DNA from: Flavobacteriales bacterium
GTDB lineage: Bacteria > Bacteroidota > Bacteroidia > Flavobacteriales_D > CAJJDF01
DNA length: 64,000 nucleotides
Assembly (NCBI GenBank): GCA_020630395.1
Contig: JAHDBM010000010.1
Location: 5,054 to 69,053 of the forward strand
Direction: 5' to 3'
Under the pieces are notes generated by a model that ran no database searches, was not told the origin of the DNA, and saw nothing but the letters and a program-made list of their open reading frames with translations. Within the stretch, counting starts at the first letter, position 1; every line of letters starts with the position of its first letter. Shown here piece by piece: positions 24,989-40,077 of the stretch. The translations under genes were made by a program, and so were the position numbers.

Positions 24989-27900
24989 ATGAAAACACTA
25001 CTACACTTAAAAATGATGATGATATCCCTTATTATAGGGACATCCACATTCTCTCAGTTTGTTGATTACGAACGAGACACGAAATGGAACTTTGGACTAA
25101 ACATAGGCGGAACATGGCAAGATGCAGATATTAATCTGCAAAGACCAGGACTTGGATATGGTTTTACGTTTGGTAGAGCTATATATGAACAGCCTAACAG
25201 TATGTTTGGTTTAGATCTTAGATTTAGATATTTAAGAGGTAAAACATTTGGATTAGATCCAGATCGTTACTTAGTAGATTCTGCTACTGATGGTGGGTAT
25301 TATGCAGATAATGCTCCTTCTATAGTAGATAGTGGATATACTTACTTGAATAATGAAACAGATCTTCATGACTTTTCTTTAGAAGCTGTTTTAAAATTTC
25401 ATAGACTTAGAGAACGTACTGGAATTTTATTTCACGTTTTTGGTGGTGTTGGAATCACTGATTTTGGAACTAAAACAAACCTAACAGATGCTAATGGTTT
25501 TAATTACGATTATAGTAGTTTACCTGTTACTGGTGCTGATCCAACATTTGATCATGAAAACATATTGGATGAAGATTATGAATCTAATGCTGCATATCAT
25601 GAAGAAAGGCAAGTGAAATTCATGCCGTCTTTAGGTATTGGTATTGGTTATCAAATAACACCTAGTTTTTCTATTGGATTAGAACATAGAACTACGTTTA
25701 CGTTATACGATCAATTTGATGGTGTTGAGCAACCTGGAAGTGAATTTTTAAACTTAGAAAGTGGTAATGATATTTACCATTACAGTGCATTGAATTTAAG
25801 ATGGAACTTATTTAGAGGTAAAGCATCCCAAGAAGAAGATACATATGACCCACAAGATCCTTTTCCTTGTGATAAGCCTTATGTAAGTTTTGTTACACCA
25901 AGAGCAAACGAAAAGTTTGAAACGCAATATATTTCTATTTCAGCTAAGGTTGCCCGAGTATTAAGTAATAATGATATTGTTGTTAAAGTAAATAATATTG
26001 TTGTTGCCACTCAATATTCACTTTCAACTGAATTAGTTACTGCCAATGCTACTTTATTAAAGGGTAATAATACGATTGAGATAATAGCATCTAATAAATG
26101 TGGAAGAACTGTAGTTAAACGTAATGTTTCATTCCAAGAAAAAGAATGTTTAAAGCCTTATGTTAAAGTTAATAGCCCTTTAGCTACTGCTGTTAACCAA
26201 AGAACACAAAAATTAAATGCTACTGTAATTCATTTAAATCAAGGAACAGTTAATGTTACATTAAATGGACAAACTACTCCGCATACGTTAAATGGGCAAT
26301 CATTAAATGCTACTTTAAATTTAGTAGAGGGAAATAACTCAGTTGCTATTAAAGCTCAAAATGAATGTGGTGATACTACTTTGTTTATCAATTTACAATA
26401 TAAAGATGAACCTTGTTTAAGCCCTGTTATTAGCATACAAACTCCTCAAAATAATAGTAGACTTACAAGGAAATCAGTTACTTTATCTGCTAGAATAGAT
26501 AATATGCTATCTAATGATAGTTATACAGTTAAACTTAATGGTGTAACTCAGCAAGCTAGTTTTAGTCCGTCATCTAATATGTTAACTGCTGGCTTACAAC
26601 TTACAGGTGGTAACAACAGTATAGTGGTAACTGCTACTAATAAATGTGGTACAGATACAAAGGTTATTAATGTTATTGTAGAGAAAGAACCGTGTTTGGC
26701 TCCTGTAATATCTATTCTTAACCCCAGTAATGGTATAAAAGTATCAAGTCCTACGGTTAATTTAAGTGCAACTATCAATAATGTTGTATCAGCAAATCAA
26801 GTATCTGTTTCAGTTAATGGAAGAATTAATGCGAGTTCATTTAATAGTGCTAGAGGTAATTTAAGTTCATTATTAAAATTACAAGAAGGAACAAATACAA
26901 TAACAATCAATGCACAGAATGAGTGTGGTAATGATGTTAAAACAATTACGGTAATATATGAAAAACTACCTTGTTTAGCTCCTGTTATTAGTATCATAGC
27001 TCCTCAAAATGGACAGGTGTTTAATAACAATTCTACTGCGATAAGTGCTTCAATTTCAAATATAGTATCGGGTAGTCAAGTAACATGTTTAGTTAATGGT
27101 AATAGAGTGGCATCTTCCTATAATGCTTCTACAAGAATGTTAACTGCTAATACTGTTCTTAATAAAGGAAATAATACAGTGTCTATAACGGCAACTAACG
27201 ATTGTGGAAGTGTAACTGAAACAGTAGTTGTAACTTACCAATGTCCTACACCTGTTATTACTGTTTATGGCCCAACAACAGGTAGTGTTGTTAATGTTGC
27301 AAATGTTTCATTAAATGCTGCTGTAAGTGGTGTTAGTAATAAGAATGAGATTGTAGTATCATTAAATGGTAGTAATGTGCCTTTTAACTTTAACACACAA
27401 ACAGGAAGTATTACTGGTTCATTTTCGTTAAGAAATGGAGTTAATACGATTCGTATTTCTGTTAATACAGCATGTGGTGTTGCTAACAAGAGTATAGATG
27501 TTACGTATAACAAGCCATGTGACAAACCTGTAGTAACAATAACAAGTCCTATTAATAGTCAAGTTACTAGTAATTCTCAAATTACTATTGCTGGATCTGC
27601 AACTAATGTTACTAATAGATCTCAAATAAGTGTTACACTAAATGGTAACCCTGTAAATGTTAATGTAAGTGGTAATGGAACATTATCAATTAGTGGATCT
27701 GCAACATTAACTCAATCGGGTAATAATACGATTGTAATTACAGCAACAAATAGTTGTGGAGCAGATGCGAAGTCTGTATTGGTTAATTATAAAGCAAATG
27801 TACCTTGCCCTAAACCTGTATTAAGTATTATTACTCCGGTTGATGGTAAAACATATACAACTAAAAATGTAACGTTTAGCACAGTAGTTGCAAATATTAC

Positions 27901-30679
27901 TAGTAGTTCACAAGTAGTTGTTAAACTTAACGGAAGAACAATTTCAAGTTCTTTTAATAGTAGAACAAATCAAGTTACAGCTTCATTATCTTTAATAGAA
28001 GGAAATAATGCTATTGAAGTTGTTGCAACTAATTCTTGTGGAAATGCTCAGCAATCTATTAATGTTACGTTTAGATGTGATAAGCCAAAAATTAATTTCA
28101 TCAACCAAAATGGTATTAATAGAGCAGCTGCGACTGCTACAACAACTATAGTTGCTAGGGTAACAAATGTTACAGCTACTAGTCAGATAACGGTTAAATT
28201 AAATGGGAATGTAATTCCTCATAATTTTGCAACATCTACAGGAGTGTTAACGATTACAACTACCCTTAAAAAAGGCAAAAACACGATTGATGTTATGGCT
28301 AATAATGCTTGTGGAAGTGATAATCAAAATTTAGTTATTGATTTTAATCCTCCATGTGCAAAGCCAACTGTTAGTATTGCAGCACCTAGAAATGGAGCAC
28401 AATTAACTTCTCCTACAGTTAAATTAGTAGGTTCTGCATTAAATATTACAAGTAATAATCAATTAACTGTTAAGTTAAATGGCAAAGTACAGTCAACAAC
28501 TTTTACTTCGTCTAATAATAGCTACCAAAGTACATTATCATTGATAAGTGGTAATAATACGATAGAAGTTACTGCTACTAATTCTTGTGGTACTGCAACT
28601 AAAACAATTACGGTAAATTATAAAAAGCCTTGTGTTGCTCCAGCTGTTACAATTACAAGTCCTGCAAAAGGTAGTGCTATTAGTAGTTCTACTGTTAATT
28701 ATACTGCTAGAGTAACGGGTTCTGTAATAAAGTCGAATATTACGGTTCGTTTAAACGGAACATTGTTAACCAATTTTAGCTATAATGCGTCAACTGGAAT
28801 TGTTAGTGGTACAGCAAATGTAACACAAACGGGAACTAATAGAATAGCTGTATTTGCAATGAATGATTGTGGACAAATAGAATCTGCTAATGAGTTTACC
28901 AAAAAAGCCCCATGTGTTAAACCTATTATTACAGTAGGAAGTCCAACTAATGGTTCTACAGTTAATACTGGTACTATAAAAATTGATGGATATGCTAGAA
29001 ATGTTTCTCAAGCTCAAATTACGATTAAAGTAAATGGGCAAAGCAAAACATTTAACTACAGTTCTAAGTCAAATATTTATAGTTTAAACACGAGTTTAAT
29101 ATCAGGGACTAATACAATTGTTATTACTGCTACTAATGCTTGTGGTTCGGTAACTAAAACGATTATGGTTAATTATAATAAGCCATGCGTTAAGCCAACT
29201 GTTTCTATAAGCACACCTGCGGGTGGAGCTAAAGTTACACGAGCTGCACAAAGATTAACAGGGTCAGTAACTGAAATTACATCAGGATCACAACTTACGG
29301 TTAAACTTAATGGGGTTACTCAGCAGGCATCTTATAATGCATCTAGTAAATCTTTTGAAGCTGATTTAATATTAAATAATGGGTCTAATACCATTATGGT
29401 TTCTGCTCAAAATAATTGTGGAAATGCAATTAAAACCATTACGGTTACTTATAATCAGCCATGTGTTAAGCCTGGTGTAACTATCAGTACTCCTGCTAAA
29501 GGAGCAAACGTTTCGACTTCTAGAGTAAATTATTCGGCAAGGATTACTGGTACAGTTATAAAGAATAATATTTCTGTAAGTTTAAATGGAAATAGCTTAA
29601 GTACTTTTAATTATAATGCATCTACTGGTATTGTTAGTGGAACAGCTACTGTAACACAAACAGGTAATAATAGACTTGCCATATTTGTGATAAACGATTG
29701 CGGACAAATTGAAGTTGCTAATGAATTTACTAAGGCTGCTCCATGTGTTAAACCAAATGTGAGTTTGATTAGTCCAGCTAATGGTTCTCAAGTTAATGTT
29801 GCGAATGTTAAAATAGATGGATATGCTAGAAATGTTTCGCAAGCCCAAATAACAATTACGGTTAACGGGAAAGCAAAAACATTTAACTATAGCTCTAAGT
29901 CTAATATTTACAGTTTAAATACAAGTTTAATTGAAGGAAAAAACACAATTGTTGTTAAAGCTACAAATGCTTGTGGTACAGTTACTAAAACTAGTGTTGT
30001 AACATATAAGAAGCCTTGTAGTAATCCAAGTGTAGCTATAGCTGCTCCTAAAAATGGTTTTAAGCCAAAGAAAAATGTAGTAAACTTTAGTGCAGCTATT
30101 GAGAATATTAAGACTTCTAGAGATGTTGTTGTTAAGCTTAATGGTAAAACCGTTAAATTTACATTAATAGGTAATAAAGTAAGTGGTTTAGTAACCTTAA
30201 CCAAAAAGGGAAATAATAAATTAGAGATCATTGCTACAAATACTTGTGGTAAAGTTACCAAGAGTGTTAATATATTATATTCTCCTATAACTCCTATTAT
30301 AAAAGTCTCATTCCCAACTACAAACCCAACAAATGTGGGGAGTACAGGGTCTAAGATTAGTGGTAATGTTAGTGGTATCACATCTCCTAGTCAATTTGTA
30401 ATAAAAATTGGTAAAGATATTCAAAAAGGAGTGTCATTAACTAGACAGAAAAATGGGAGCTATAATTTTAATGCTGAAGTAAGGTTGCAAAAAGGTGAAA
30501 ACACAGTAGTTCTTGAAGCGATTAATAATTATAAGGTTAAGGCAACAAAATCTCTTGATTTTGTAGTTGGAAATGTGAAAGGCGGGACAAAAACCAATAA
30601 TACAACTCCTAATGTTAAAGCCGGTTCGATTAAAGGTGTAAAACCTGGGGGAGGTAAAGTTTCAAACCCTAGGAGGTAA
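24989..30679 (+). CDS. Giant surface/envelope protein: signal peptide, predicted N-terminal outer-membrane beta-barrel, about 17 tandem Ig-like domains
   Basis: Amphipathic beta strands in the first ~290 aa (FGLDLRFRYLRG, ILFHVFGGVGITDFG, SLGIGIGYQITPSFSIGLEHRTTF, SALNLRWNLFRG), then repeats PCxKPxVxIxxPxNG...VKLNG...GNNTIxIxATNxCGxxTKxIxVxY. Confidence 0.85.
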   Translation: MKTLLHLKMMMISLIIGTSTFSQFVDYERDTKWNFGLNIGGTWQDADINLQRPGLGYGFTFGRAIYEQPNSMFGLDLRFRYLRGKTFGLDPDRYLVDSATDGGYYADNAPSIVDSGYTYLNNETDLHDFSLEAVLKFHRLRERTGILFHVFGGVGITDFGTKTNLTDANGFNYDYSSLPVTGADPTFDHENILDEDYESNAAYHEERQVKFMPSLGIGIGYQITPSFSIGLEHRTTFTLYDQFDGVEQPGSEFLNLESGNDIYHYSALNLRWNLFRGKASQEEDTYDPQDPFPCDKPYVSFVTPRANEKFETQYISISAKVARVLSNNDIVVKVNNIVVATQYSLSTELVTANATLLKGNNTIEIIASNKCGRTVVKRNVSFQEKECLKPYVKVNSPLATAVNQRTQKLNATVIHLNQGTVNVTLNGQTTPHTLNGQSLNATLNLVEGNNSVAIKAQNECGDTTLFINLQYKDEPCLSPVISIQTPQNNSRLTRKSVTLSARIDNMLSNDSYTVKLNGVTQQASFSPSSNMLTAGLQLTGGNNSIVVTATNKCGTDTKVINVIVEKEPCLAPVISILNPSNGIKVSSPTVNLSATINNVVSANQVSVSVNGRINASSFNSARGNLSSLLKLQEGTNTITINAQNECGNDVKTITVIYEKLPCLAPVISIIAPQNGQVFNNNSTAISASISNIVSGSQVTCLVNGNRVASSYNASTRMLTANTVLNKGNNTVSITATNDCGSVTETVVVTYQCPTPVITVYGPTTGSVVNVANVSLNAAVSGVSNKNEIVVSLNGSNVPFNFNTQTGSITGSFSLRNGVNTIRISVNTACGVANKSIDVTYNKPCDKPVVTITSPINSQVTSNSQITIAGSATNVTNRSQISVTLNGNPVNVNVSGNGTLSISGSATLTQSGNNTIVITATNSCGADAKSVLVNYKANVPCPKPVLSIITPVDGKTYTTKNVTFSTVVANITSSSQVVVKLNGRTISSSFNSRTNQVTASLSLIEGNNAIEVVATNSCGNAQQSINVTFRCDKPKINFINQNGINRAAATATTTIVARVTNVTATSQITVKLNGNVIPHNFATSTGVLTITTTLKKGKNTIDVMANNACGSDNQNLVIDFNPPCAKPTVSIAAPRNGAQLTSPTVKLVGSALNITSNNQLTVKLNGKVQSTTFTSSNNSYQSTLSLISGNNTIEVTATNSCGTATKTITVNYKKPCVAPAVTITSPAKGSAISSSTVNYTARVTGSVIKSNITVRLNGTLLTNFSYNASTGIVSGTANVTQTGTNRIAVFAMNDCGQIESANEFTKKAPCVKPIITVGSPTNGSTVNTGTIKIDGYARNVSQAQITIKVNGQSKTFNYSSKSNIYSLNTSLISGTNTIVITATNACGSVTKTIMVNYNKPCVKPTVSISTPAGGAKVTRAAQRLTGSVTEITSGSQLTVKLNGVTQQASYNASSKSFEADLILNNGSNTIMVSAQNNCGNAIKTITVTYNQPCVKPGVTISTPAKGANVSTSRVNYSARITGTVIKNNISVSLNGNSLSTFNYNASTGIVSGTATVTQTGNNRLAIFVINDCGQIEVANEFTKAAPCVKPNVSLISPANGSQVNVANVKIDGYARNVSQAQITITVNGKAKTFNYSSKSNIYSLNTSLIEGKNTIVVKATNACGTVTKTSVVTYKKPCSNPSVAIAAPKNGFKPKKNVVNFSAAIENIKTSRDVVVKLNGKTVKFTLIGNKVSGLVTLTKKGNNKLEIIATNTCGKVTKSVNILYSPITPIIKVSFPTTNPTNVGSTGSKISGNVSGITSPSQFVIKIGKDIQKGVSLTRQKNGSYNFNAEVRLQKGENTVVLEAINNYKVKATKSLDFVVGNVKGGTKTNNTTPNVKAGSIKGVKPGGGKVSNPRR
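28352..29182 (+). repeat. 831-bp three-domain supermodule, copy 1
   Basis: Domain starts (Pro codon of PC) at 28352, 28628, 28910. Confidence 0.92.
29183..30013 (+). repeat. 831-bp three-domain supermodule, copy 2
   Basis: Domain starts at 29183, 29459, 29741; next unit at 30014; each is exactly +831 nt from copy 1. Confidence 0.92.
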
Positions 30680-31401: not shown

Positions 31402-32952
31402 TTATCTAACAATTAATTTTGTTCTAAAAATAGAACCTTCATTATTTACTAATTGCACAAAATATACTCCATTAACTTTAGGAGCATAAACAACTGAATG
31501 CTGTAAGTTGAGGTTTTGATGAACTATTTTACCACTTACATCTATTATTTTTATTGATAATATATCGTTATCTATATTAAGAATATCACCTCTAGTAATA
31601 GGATTAGGATATAACGTATACGGTTTTTTCTTGATATTGTGAATGGAAGTAGAAGATGGATTAAGTTTTACCAACCAACTATCTGAACCACCAATATTTA
31701 ATGATACATCATTAGTGTCAGAAGATGAGCGTCCAATAAAAACTAGATCATTTGTATTGTTTTCGATAATTTCTATTCCTTGATCATAACTATCTCCTCC
31801 ATAATTTTTTTCAAATAATAAATTTCCATTGTTTGGATTAATATTTATAAGCCATACATCATTACCTCCGTAATTATTGCTTACTTGACCATCATTAGAG
31901 GAGGTGCTACCAATACCATAAACTTCTCCATTACTTAACTCAATTAAGTTAAGCAAAATGTCATCATCACTTCCTCCATACACTTCTTTCCAATTAATAT
32001 TACCATTTTTATCATAATTAATAATCCATATATCAATATTATCATATACAGAGTCAACATCAAAGTCTTTAGAGTATGAATATCCTCCTATGATTATGGA
32101 GCTATCAGATAAAGGGAGAATGCTCTCAGCAAAGTCTAAACTACTACCACCAATAGCATCACTCCAAATTACAGCACCTGTGTCATTAAATTTAATAGTA
32201 AGATAATCATAACTACCATTGTTAGATGGCGAATCATTATTACTAGATGTGCTTAAACCAGTCATGATAAAATTACCATCTAATAAAGGTTTTATATCTC
32301 TAATTTGTTCAGTTCCTGTTCCTCCATAATTTTTTTCCCACAATACATTTCCAGCTGTGTCAATTTCCATGATTAAATTATCAAAACTACCATAGTTATT
32401 AGATACATCACCATTACTGGAACTTGACATTGCACCAATTAATAGATTTCCATTTGCTTTTTGAATAATTGTTTCCCCTCTATCTCTATCAGTACCTCCG
32501 TATGTTTTTGCCCAAATTAAATTACCACTAGTAGATAATTTAACTAATAATATGTCGTCATCTCCTTTGTTAACAGTTATGTCTTGATCGTTTGACTTTG
32601 AATATCCAACAATATAAATTGCATTATCACTACCTTTTAATATTTCTTTAGGGTAATCATTAAGTGTTCCACCAATTGTTGTTTCCCAAATTATATTTCC
32701 GGCAGCATCAATATTGGCAACCCAAACATCACTTCCTCCTTTATCTACAGAAGCTGTCCCATCATTAAGGTTGTTGTCATTAGCAATTAAATAGCCTGAG
32801 CCTCCATCAGAGGTTAGTGAGTGAGATATTTCAGATAAAGATGATCCAAATGTTTTTTCCCAATCGATATCAGTAAATTGAGCATTAAGCATATATCCTA
32901 GTAAGATAAAAAGTAAAGATAGTTTCATAGTTGATTTTTTTAAAGATAACAA
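31402..32952 (-). CDS. Secreted repeat protein (predicted seven-bladed propeller) with T9SS type A sorting domain
   Basis: Seven ~59-aa repeats (WEKxYGGxxxD...GSDxWLxxxDxxGN) and C-terminus LYPNPITRGDILNI...GVYFVQLVNNEGSIFRTKLIVR. Confidence 0.87.
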   Translation of the reverse strand: MLSLKKSTMKLSLLFILLGYMLNAQFTDIDWEKTFGSSLSEISHSLTSDGGSGYLIANDNNLNDGTASVDKGGSDVWVANIDAAGNIIWETTIGGTLNDYPKEILKGSDNAIYIVGYSKSNDQDITVNKGDDDILLVKLSTSGNLIWAKTYGGTDRDRGETIIQKANGNLLIGAMSSSSNGDVSNNYGSFDNLIMEIDTAGNVLWEKNYGGTGTEQIRDIKPLLDGNFIMTGLSTSSNNDSPSNNGSYDYLTIKFNDTGAVIWSDAIGGSSLDFAESILPLSDSSIIIGGYSYSKDFDVDSVYDNIDIWIINYDKNGNINWKEVYGGSDDDILLNLIELSNGEVYGIGSTSSNDGQVSNNYGGNDVWLININPNNGNLLFEKNYGGDSYDQGIEIIENNTNDLVFIGRSSSDTNDVSLNIGGSDSWLVKLNPSSTSIHNIKKKPYTLYPNPITRGDILNIDNDILSIKIIDVSGKIVHQNLNLQHSVVYAPKVNGVYFVQLVNNEGSIFRTKLIVR

Positions 32953-36119: not shown

Positions 36120-36192
36120 TTATTTAACGGTAGTAATGTTTTACTAAATATAGGCATCCTTTTAAAATCTAACGCGTTATTGCATTGGTTTG

Positions 36193-36223
36193 TTGATATT
36201 ATTAATAAAACGAGTTACTTTTG
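36193..36223 (+). promoter_or_regulatory. Bacteroidota-type promoter (TTG-N20-TACTTTTG)
   Basis: TTG 36193-36195, TACTTTTG 36216-36223. Confidence 0.5.
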
Positions 36224-36237
36224 TATCTGTAAAGAAT

Positions 36238-39200
36238 ATGTTGTTCATGCGGAGTAAATATCTATTGCTTGTATTTTTAAGTGTTATGGCACACTTTTCT
36301 TTCTCACAAAGAGGAAAAGATGGATCGTATACGGTTACTGGTACAACTGTTGTAAATGAATATACTAGATTAATTGCTACAGCAATAAGTGCATCAACAA
36401 CTATAACAATTCAGTCAACTACATTAAACGCAAATAGTCGATTTTCTGGAAATCTTCAACCCGGAGATTTATTATTTATTATGCAAGTTCAAGGGGTGGA
36501 AATTACAGGGGCAGTAGATCCTTCTCAAGCAAATGCAGGTATACCCAACAATAATACATGGGGTAATATTATAGATTACAGAAATGTTGGATTATATGAA
36601 TATGCTGAAGTCAAATCAATAATTTCTGGTTCCCAGATTGAACTTACCTGTGGTTTACAACATGATTATACATTAGGTAATTTTAGTGAAAAAGTTATTG
36701 TTGTTAGAGTTCCGAGATATAATGATTTAACGATTAGTAATGGGGCAACTTTAACAGCTGATGCATGGGATGGACAAACGGGAGGTGTTGTGGTTGTAGA
36801 AGTTTTGGGTAATACAGTTGTTAATGGAACTATTGATGTGTCAGAGAAAGGGTTTAGAGGAGGAGACTTAAATACTAATACTGGAAATTACGAGTGGCAT
36901 TTTACAGGAAGTGATGCAACATTTGGAGGGGAAAAAGGAGAAGGGATAGCAGGTTATAAAACAGAATTAAATATTTTTGGAGGTATGTATGGTATGGGAG
37001 CTCCTGCCAATGGTGGTGGTGCCGGAAACTCTCATAATGGTGGTGGTGCTGGTGGAGCAAATGCTTCTAAACCTACTTTAACATGGACAGGGAAAGGAAT
37101 ACCTCAAATTACTAATCCAGCATGGGCAAACGCATGGAATGTAGAACAAGCAGGTTTAGCGACATCACATTCTTCGGGAGGAGGTAGAGGAGGATATTGT
37201 TGGAGTACATCTAATGGTGATGCATTAACTCAACCTCCAGGAGATGCAGTTTGGGGAGGTCACAATAGAGCAAATTACGGAGGTGTAGGTGGTCGACCTT
37301 TAGATTATTCTGCAGGTAGAATATTTTTTGGTGGAGGTGGAGGTGCCGGGCATCAAAACGATAGTGAAGGAGGAAAAGGAGGAAGTGCTGCTGGTATCGT
37401 TATGTTAAACACCTATGGACCTGTAACTGGAGTGGGTTCTATTACAGCTAACGGTCAAGAAGGAACAGGTTCAGATCAATTGTCAGCTCCATTTTCTGGT
37501 CAAGTTAATCGAGATGGAAGTGGAGGAGGTGGAGCCGGAGGTACTATTTTAATTAAAAATATTGGGGGGATTAGTATTGGATCAATTGAAGCTAAAGGTG
37601 GAGATGGCGGAAATCAAGTTATTAGAACAGGTTTATTTGGAGGCAGCCTAGCAGAAGCTCAAGGACCAGGAGGTGGTGGAAGTGGAGGTTATGTGGGGTT
37701 ATCTACTTTAGGAGTTATTAGTGATCTTGAAGGCGGAATAAACGGCACAACTAATTCTTCTAGTATTACAGAGTTTCCTCCTAATGGAGCAACAAAAGGG
37801 GATACTGGTTATTTAGAACAAATTAATTCTAATTATAATATTATTGTTGATAACGACACAATATGTGGAGGAGGAACTGTTACGATTTCACCAACTATTG
37901 TTGGAGTTTTGCCTACAACTGGCGGACAATTAGATTGGTACGATAGTTATTTTTCTCAAACGTCATTACATACAGGGAACACATTTACTACTCCAATATT
38001 AAATACAACAACTACCTATTACTTTGGAGGTTGTAATATCCCGTTTAGAGATAGTGTAACTATTGTCGTTTCTCCACCTATTGTTATTGATAGCTCATCA
38101 ATATCTATAACGCATGAATCATGTGATGGAAATGATGGGTCAATTACCGGAATAACAGCTAGTGGTGGTTTGGGAGCACTTGAATATTACTGGAATAATA
38201 CACTTTCTACATCTATTGACACAATAAACCTTTCAGGAGGAACATTTGAATTAATTGTATTTGATTCTATTGGATGTTCTGATACATTATCAAACTTAGT
38301 TGTAAACGGCACATTTGTTCCTACTATAGATACTTCTTTTATGGTGAAAGTTAAAGATACTTGTGCTAGAGTTACTGGAGAACTTAATGGAGTTATAGTT
38401 ACTGGCGGTAGCGGAAGTTACCTTTATGAGGTAAATGGAATAATAGTACCAAGTCTTAATGTCAATAATTTATCAGCAGGTATTCATCAAGTGGTTGTAA
38501 TTGATAATAATAGTGGGTGTACTGATACTATGGATATTCCAATTGGTTTAATTTCACCTCCATCTTTATTTTTAGGAAACGATACAACTATTTGTACGGG
38601 ACAGAGTTTATTGCTAGATGGAACAACAACTGGAGTTACCTATTTATGGCAAGACGCAAGTACAAACGCTAATTTTAATGTTGTTTCTCCTGGATTATAT
38701 TGGTTAGAGATTGATGCTGGAGGATGCACAGCTAGAGACAGTATAAATGTTGCCTTTACTAATGGAACACCTGTTAATCTTGGAAACGACACAACACTTT
38801 GTGCAGGGCAATCTTTGTTATTAGATGCAACTGTTGCTGGAGCAACTTATGAGTGGCAAGATTTCTCTACAAATTCAACTTTTTTAGTTACTACTGCTGG
38901 ACAATATTATGTTGAAGTTGATGAAGGCGGTTGTATTAATAGGGATACAATTAATGTTACTTATTCTAACACATCACTTTCGTTAGGAAATGATACTAGT
39001 TTATGTGATTTAGATAGTTTGGTTTTCGATATATCTCAACCAGGTGCAACTTATCTTTGGAGTGATGCATCAACAAACGCAAAATTTTCTATTACCGGTC
39101 CTGGTTTATATTGGGGAGAAATTAAAATAGGGAATTGTACCGCAAGAGATTCAATTAATGTTACCTATGGTGTTTCTCCAAATCCAAACTTTGGAAATGA

Positions 39201-40077
39201 TACTACAATATGCTCAGGTGAAACATTATTATTAGAGGCAACTGTTCCTGGAGCTACATACGAATGGCAAGACTTATCAACTAATGCAACTTATACAGTT
39301 AGTTTTGCAGGACAATACCATGTAGAGGTGAATAATAACGGATGTTTAGGTAGGGATACTATAGATGTTACTTATCAAAATGTTCAAGTAGATTTAGGAA
39401 GTGATGTTGTGTTATGTGATGCTCAAACGTTAACATTAGATATAACTGAACCAGGAGCTACATACTTATGGAGTGATGCCAGTACAAATGCTACATTAAC
39501 TATAGCTAATCAAGGTTTATATTGGGGAGAAGTAACAATTGGTAATTGTTCTGATAGAGATTCCATTAATATTACTTATGAAGTAACACCTGTTGTTTAC
39601 ATTGGAAATGACACGCTAATATGTGATGATCAAGAGTTATATTTAGATGCATCAGTTCCTGGAGCAACATATTTGTGGGATGATGGTACCATGTTGCCAA
39701 ATAGAACAATTGATGAAGAAGGACAATATTATGTTAGGGTTACGAATGGATGTGGAGTGGATAACGATACCATAAATATTAATACAAAAGATTGTTCGTG
39801 TAATATATTTATGCCAAATGCTTTTTCTCCTAATGGAGATGGATTTAATGATGTTTATATACCTCAAATATCATGTGAGTTTCATCAGTTTGAGTTAAGA
39901 ATATATAATAGACAAGGAATTCTAGTATATTACAGTGAAGATCCAAAAGAAACTTGGGATGGTAATCATAAAGGTGGGGTTAATGAATCTGAAGTTTATG
40001 TATGGACACTTAAGTATCGTATTATAGGTGATGTTGAAATTCAAGTTAAGAGAGGTCACTTAACAATGGTTAGGTAA
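36238..40077 (+). CDS. Secreted Gly-rich repeat protein with gliding motility-associated (T9SS type B) C-terminal domain
   Basis: Signal peptide MRSKYLLLVFLSVMAHFSFSQ; PNAFSPNGDGFNDVYIP...YSEDPKETWDGNHKGG C-terminus. The ORF-track start 36190 overlaps a promoter, so ATG 36238 or 36247 is preferred. Confidence 0.87.
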   Translation: MLFMRSKYLLLVFLSVMAHFSFSQRGKDGSYTVTGTTVVNEYTRLIATAISASTTITIQSTTLNANSRFSGNLQPGDLLFIMQVQGVEITGAVDPSQANAGIPNNNTWGNIIDYRNVGLYEYAEVKSIISGSQIELTCGLQHDYTLGNFSEKVIVVRVPRYNDLTISNGATLTADAWDGQTGGVVVVEVLGNTVVNGTIDVSEKGFRGGDLNTNTGNYEWHFTGSDATFGGEKGEGIAGYKTELNIFGGMYGMGAPANGGGAGNSHNGGGAGGANASKPTLTWTGKGIPQITNPAWANAWNVEQAGLATSHSSGGGRGGYCWSTSNGDALTQPPGDAVWGGHNRANYGGVGGRPLDYSAGRIFFGGGGGAGHQNDSEGGKGGSAAGIVMLNTYGPVTGVGSITANGQEGTGSDQLSAPFSGQVNRDGSGGGGAGGTILIKNIGGISIGSIEAKGGDGGNQVIRTGLFGGSLAEAQGPGGGGSGGYVGLSTLGVISDLEGGINGTTNSSSITEFPPNGATKGDTGYLEQINSNYNIIVDNDTICGGGTVTISPTIVGVLPTTGGQLDWYDSYFSQTSLHTGNTFTTPILNTTTTYYFGGCNIPFRDSVTIVVSPPIVIDSSSISITHESCDGNDGSITGITASGGLGALEYYWNNTLSTSIDTINLSGGTFELIVFDSIGCSDTLSNLVVNGTFVPTIDTSFMVKVKDTCARVTGELNGVIVTGGSGSYLYEVNGIIVPSLNVNNLSAGIHQVVVIDNNSGCTDTMDIPIGLISPPSLFLGNDTTICTGQSLLLDGTTTGVTYLWQDASTNANFNVVSPGLYWLEIDAGGCTARDSINVAFTNGTPVNLGNDTTLCAGQSLLLDATVAGATYEWQDFSTNSTFLVTTAGQYYVEVDEGGCINRDTINVTYSNTSLSLGNDTSLCDLDSLVFDISQPGATYLWSDASTNAKFSITGPGLYWGEIKIGNCTARDSINVTYGVSPNPNFGNDTTICSGETLLLEATVPGATYEWQDLSTNATYTVSFAGQYHVEVNNNGCLGRDTIDVTYQNVQVDLGSDVVLCDAQTLTLDITEPGATYLWSDASTNATLTIANQGLYWGEVTIGNCSDRDSINITYEVTPVVYIGNDTLICDDQELYLDASVPGATYLWDDGTMLPNRTIDEEGQYYVRVTNGCGVDNDTININTKDCSCNIFMPNAFSPNGDGFNDVYIPQISCEFHQFELRIYNRQGILVYYSEDPKETWDGNHKGGVNESEVYVWTLKYRIIGDVEIQVKRGHLTMVR
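38575..39807 (+). repeat. Six ~68/69-codon tandem repeats (A-B-A-B-A-B)
   Basis: GNDTT-type unit starts at 38575, 38782, 38986, 39193, 39397, 39604. Confidence 0.93.

Follow-up and report, generated by a model that had tools for sequence, protein, structure and literature searches.

Gene and domain layout

The window, a stretch of 64,000 nucleotides of DNA from a Flavobacteriales bacterium, contains an open reading frame on the forward strand (24989-30679) that encodes the Ig-barrel protein, of 1,896 residues. The parent assembly contains the same frame, intact and without differences, and no second copy of the gene was found there. A preliminary description of this DNA had claimed a signal peptide and an N-terminal outer membrane barrel, some 17 Ig-like domains, and a basic tail without a type IX secretion system (T9SS) sorting domain, and this layout was recovered in each of its parts.

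The putative signal peptide (24989-25054, forward strand; residues 1-22) ends at a predicted cleavage site between GTSTFS and QFVDY, as judged from the sequence and from the aligned N-termini of homologues, which have in common a hydrophobic stretch ending in [AS]Q. It is followed by a predicted 8-stranded beta-barrel of the OmpA/PorG type (25076-25813, forward strand; residues 30-275), assigned by AF2, Foldseek and Pfam/NCBIfam, with AF2 strands at residues 30-45, 54-66, 74-89, 121-136, 146-163, 208-222, 227-237 and 262-275. A flexible linker (25814-25867, forward strand; residues 276-293), with low pLDDT at residues 278-291, connects the barrel to the first Ig-like domain.

Sixteen Ig-like domains of the Big_7/Glucodextran_B type, with one cysteine pair each, occupy positions 25868-30289 (forward strand; residues 294-1767), and a seventeenth domain (30290-30559, forward strand; residues 1768-1857) is free of cysteine and the most divergent. 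The 16 domains are defined by the spacing of the 33 cysteines in the array, of which the paired ones lie 73-79 residues apart (294/371, 387/460 and so on to 1677/1753) and Cys 700 is an extra one; in the AF2 model of the barrel region the first domain spans residues 298-382. Both Glucodextran_B (E 4e-37) and Big_7 (E 1.5e-26) match the array above their Pfam cut-offs, and a four-domain segment folds in AF2 at a pLDDT of 94.5, with the placement of the domains relative to each other loosely constrained (pTM 0.52) and with a titin Ig string as its best Foldseek match; the array thus consists of tandem Ig-like beta-sandwich domains as found in Big_7/Glucodextran_B proteins. Domains 11-12 (28631-29185, forward strand) and 14-15 (29462-30016, forward strand) are the two copies of a two-domain tandem duplication, with an identity of 70-74% at the protein level and 71-77% at the DNA level.

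The protein ends in a basic, disordered-looking tail (30563-30676, forward strand) with eight Lys or Arg residues, no Asp or Glu, and the terminus GGGKVSNPRR. Neither a type A (TIGR04183) nor a type B (TIGR04131) T9SS sorting domain was detected with NCBIfam at E<=0.1, and an identity as T9SS cargo was rejected for lack of such a domain. Elsewhere in the window, a 516-residue protein with delta-60-like repeats (31402-32952, reverse strand) carries a type A sorting domain, and a 1,295-residue protein (36190-40077, forward strand) combines an AgmC-like N-terminus (NF047640, E 7e-43, below cut-off) with a type B domain.

The barrel and its orientation in the membrane

Profile matches to the barrel region are weak. 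The Pfam families OMP_b-brl (E 2e-4) and DUF6089 (E 8e-4) both remain below their curated cut-offs, and the best named model is PorG (NF052316, E 5e-8), with 33 bits against a cut-off of 130. The AF2 model, built on an alignment of 19 rows, nevertheless contains exactly eight barrel strands, most of them at pLDDT 85-95, and its top Foldseek match is the membrane domain of Escherichia coli OmpA (E 7e-9, TM 0.70 by target), with OmpX, Ail, NspA and OprF next in rank. The eight OmpA-like strands that the preliminary description had considered as a possibility are therefore what structure prediction gives. No solved sequence relative of the protein was found in the PDB.

In 8-stranded barrels such as OmpA, the side with the short turns is the periplasmic one. 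Long loops, all on one side, join strands 3-4, 5-6 and 7-8 of the predicted barrel, with a variable loop 1-2 that several homologues have in a longer form; strands 2-3, 4-5 and 6-7 are joined by short turns, which lie, together with the termini, on the opposite side. Both termini would thus face the periplasm, being on the short-turn side. In the Aureispira-type homologues L069, L072 and L074, moreover, the last strand and the first Ig-like domain are no more than about 8-10 residues apart (about eight in L074; alignment A3), a linker too short to thread back through the barrel.

The relatives of the barrel point the same way. The genome that includes the window encodes four other PorG-like barrels, namely PorG itself, two proteins combining barrel, TSP3 and OmpA domains, and one with a barrel and a SPOR domain (the SPOR match being just below its cut-off). 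OmpA and SPOR domains bind peptidoglycan, so that the C-termini of the barrel+OmpA and barrel+SPOR proteins are periplasmic. For PorG, a periplasmic C-terminal tail that is disulfide-bonded to the periplasmic GldK has been described (PMC12635249). The Ig-barrel protein shares with PorG an 8-stranded barrel of the same superfamily (NF052316/DUF6089), but it has no simple cysteine tail; it was rejected as a PorG orthologue, as it scores below the cut-off and a true PorG is present elsewhere in the genome (G000:C28). On the basis of loops, linker, barrel relatives and PorG, we strongly infer that the array, C-terminal to the predicted barrel, lies on the periplasmic side, and consider this placement well supported.

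In bacteria, a long Ig array is as a rule taken for a surface adhesin, and the inverse autotransporters intimin and invasin likewise combine an N-terminal barrel with an Ig stalk, a likeness pointed out in the preliminary description, which had recognised none of their signature domains. Such domains were likewise absent from our searches, with no match to the Pfam inverse-autotransporter domain (PF11924) at E<=1 and no intimin or invasin among the top 50 Foldseek folds for the barrel. Inverse autotransporters also have 12 strands instead of the eight predicted here, where there is neither room nor linker to thread a stalk, and membership of that group was rejected on these grounds. A surface adhesin in a wider sense, with the barrel as anchor and the array brought outside by an inverse-autotransporter-like or unknown route, would accord with the variable repeat number and internal duplications common in Ig-array adhesins, with a weak match to the NCBIfam adhesin repeat Ca_tandemer (E 1e-4, below cut-off), and with the type B C-terminal domain (CTD) surface protein among the neighbours of relatives. 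We regard it as improbable, given the absence of threading room and of inverse-autotransporter features, the periplasmic C-terminal domains of the non-Ig relatives, and the 16 cysteine-paired domains, which would be expected to hinder unfolded passage.

An Ig domain is about 4 nm long, and 17 straight domains exceed the radial depth of the periplasm, so that the array must bend, lie along the wall or take another path. It had been argued from this length that the array cannot fit the periplasm and must fold back, run along the envelope or be exported by an unknown route. The excess over the radial depth holds for a straight array, but the objection assumes a straight radial rod; the array could be bent or run parallel to the envelope. 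The idea of a surface system that uses an unknown route of export is unsupported, as loop alternation, linker length, the non-Ig relatives and the sister clade in the barrel tree (see below) point to the periplasm. Gliding Bacteroidota have been observed to contain periplasmic filaments (PMC9870892), without any link to the Ig-barrel protein.

Distribution, ancestry and tails of the family

Matches were found in 31 of 60 relatives, most with the same architecture, which is therefore not a product of chance. Within the order, 162 of 299 genomes contain a match to the barrel model, usually a single one, a count that includes weak matches to related barrels. In one Flavobacteriales family (f9) the Ig barrel is present in 127 of 150 genomes; of the 114 good ones, 105 have it, as a single copy. 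Genus g195 of this family has no Ig-barrel gene. The contig scan was run with a narrow barrel alignment (A2), and the carriers, by named contig, are Crocinitomicaceae, other Flavobacteriales, a Saprospiraceae MAG and Aureispira. In a phylum-wide sample, any barrel match occurs in only 24 of 297 genomes, and these are mostly OmpA-type or PorG-like, with few of the Ig type. One contig record (L056) is labelled Saccharospirillaceae, probably a taxonomic mislabel, as it corresponds to the same-genus relative G001 of a Flavobacteriales-like group. No paper on the combination of barrel and Ig array was found in the literature collection searched. The Ig-barrel proteins thus constitute a real, conserved and apparently undescribed family, and to this extent the earlier suggestion of an undescribed system stands.

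The 62 full-length members range from 1,086 to 2,981 residues, with 6-24 detected Ig domains and tails of 21-842 residues. Arrays of 18-24 domains, in reading frames of 2,400-3,000 residues, occur in several genera (L031, L118 and L121-L126). In L037, L116 and L119 the Ig array is followed by cysteine-containing repeats (e.g. ...ICVEENGVKVTKVINKVEWANYKRKGATEGACEE in L037).

In a tree of 50 barrels, those of the Ig type group together as a single clade (support 99/99), with a clade of barrel+OmpA proteins as its sister (100/98; both joined at 99/96). The simplest history suggested by this tree is a single exchange in an OmpA-type linker, with an Ig array taking the place of the wall-binding domain; the tree was midpoint-rooted, and the reverse exchange is compatible with it. 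Like the OmpA family, including the barrel+TSP3+OmpA proteins of Bacteroidota, the Ig-barrel proteins have a signal peptide, an N-terminal 8-stranded barrel and a C-terminal extension predicted to face the periplasm; they differ in having Ig domains and a variable tail in place of PF00691. In another family, the genes for the sister barrel+OmpA proteins (L079-L084) are often flanked by a polyprenyl-synthetase-like gene on one side and a bamD-like lipoprotein gene on the other (assigned by eye), possibly a conserved neighbourhood of outer membrane assembly.

The tails cannot be aligned across the family. Some are helices rich in Ala, Lys and Glu, some are proline-rich, a few contain TPRs and some are disordered. 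Many look like segments that could span the periplasm, and in composition some resemble TolA and TonB, although the Ig-barrel proteins would be anchored in the outer and not the inner membrane; one tail matches the TolA model (E 1e-13), a compositional match below cut-off. No OmpA domain (PF00691) or other known wall-binding domain was detected with Pfam in the protein or in ten homologue C-termini, and a hidden wall-binding domain in the family tails was rejected, none having been found. What does recur is a glycine/basic, acid-free C-terminus: an acidic residue is present in the last five positions of 2 of the 62 family members compared with 98 of 264 control reading frames (Fisher p ~1e-8, kinship ignored), and a glycine in the last six positions of 52 of the 62 compared with 58 of the 264 (Fisher p ~1e-19, kinship ignored).

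Gene neighbourhood and possible role

The Ig-barrel gene is divergent, in about half of the loci (some 30 of 61), from the genes for a type B CTD protein and a PorP/SprF barrel, both families being confirmed by NCBIfam in the examples tested, and in some loci a gene for an OmpA lipoprotein comes next. In the genome that includes the window, the type B and PorP pair is located on another contig (C93), unlinked to the Ig-barrel gene. Of the tested genomes, 23 of 24 with an Ig barrel and 6 of 17 lacking one encode a type B protein, kinship being ignored in this comparison. Most of the neighbouring PorP proteins have two cysteines near the C-terminus; the tail cysteines of SprF and PorG bond the gliding track component GldK (PMC12635249), and the two-cysteine PorP tails may be taken, by analogy, as a lead towards bonding to the gliding track.

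These observations could also be explained by a component of the T9SS or gliding machinery, in which the array would bind the moving GldJKN track, PorP/SprF or the translocon instead of the wall and might, for instance, lend elasticity or serve as a guide. The PorG model as nearest named relative of the barrel, the divergent PorP/type B genes, the PorP tail cysteines and the co-occurrence with type B proteins all argue for such a role, which we nevertheless consider unlikely: no gldJKN gene was seen adjoining, the array cysteines pair within their Ig domains, and the sparse distribution across the phylum means that the protein cannot be a general part of the T9SS.

We favour, with somewhat more confidence than doubt, an envelope linker of OmpA/PorG-type descent that serves as a periplasmic Ig tether or spacer at the PorP/type B station. 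The protein would be exported by Sec and its 8-stranded barrel inserted by BAM; the C-terminus would leave the barrel on the periplasmic side. There the 17 Ig domains, of which 16 probably contain a disulfide, would form a long string, and the glycine/basic tail would touch the cell wall or some other structure of the periplasm. Array and tail would stand in for the OmpA domain that binds peptidoglycan in the sister clade, and the protein would serve the same envelope station as the PorP/SprF barrel and the type B CTD protein, as suggested by gene order. The tether function is deduced, and binding to peptidoglycan is proposed by analogy with the relatives and from the basic tail; for contact of the tail with the wall and joint action with PorP/type B our confidence is moderate. 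In Porphyromonas gingivalis, PorP joins the type B protein PG1035 to the wall-binding PorE (PMC9143113). PorE supplies there the periplasmic wall link that the Ig-barrel protein might provide here, but it is a lipoprotein with TPR, propeller and OmpA domains, and has neither barrel nor Ig array.

A purely structural protein of the OmpA-like kind, with Ig repeats that have no specific partner and merely set the distance or stiffness between outer membrane and wall, would suit a gene that is single-copy and nearly universal in its family and tolerates so wide a range of lengths; the conserved divergent pair and the C-terminal residue bias suggest specific partners, however, and make this reading quite improbable. 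More speculatively, and with a rather low probability, a giant periplasmic Ig string of tens of nanometres with an OmpA-type anchor might mechanically couple the PorP-held type B protein to the wall or to the moving T9SS/gliding track in Crocinitomicaceae-like and Saprospiraceae bacteria, acting like titin as a spring or guide. If the linker reading is true, a component would be added to the much-studied type IX secretion/PorP surface-anchoring machine, and a linker between outer membrane and wall would have acquired a long Ig tether at the cost of the domain that binds the wall. Topology and ancestry point to an array inside the envelope, in a protein kept at one copy per genome across its family, a warning that annotation of barrel plus Ig-array proteins as adhesins from architecture can mislead.

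Several points count against the linker reading. The array is longer than the periplasm is deep, its repeat variation and internal duplication are also typical of surface adhesins, the tail lacks any known wall-binding domain, the barrel was modelled from only 19 aligned rows, and the partner genes are unlinked in the genome under study. Nor is the partnership obligatory: all six type B genomes without an Ig barrel belong to genus g195, which keeps the partner without the Ig-barrel gene, and strict dependence on a type B partner was rejected. Two loci of this genus (L174, 11384-14676; L175, 1095-4389) retain the cluster of type B, PorP and OmpA lipoprotein genes, and the divergent position is filled there by a gene for a 959-residue protein that by eye resembles M16-type peptidases.
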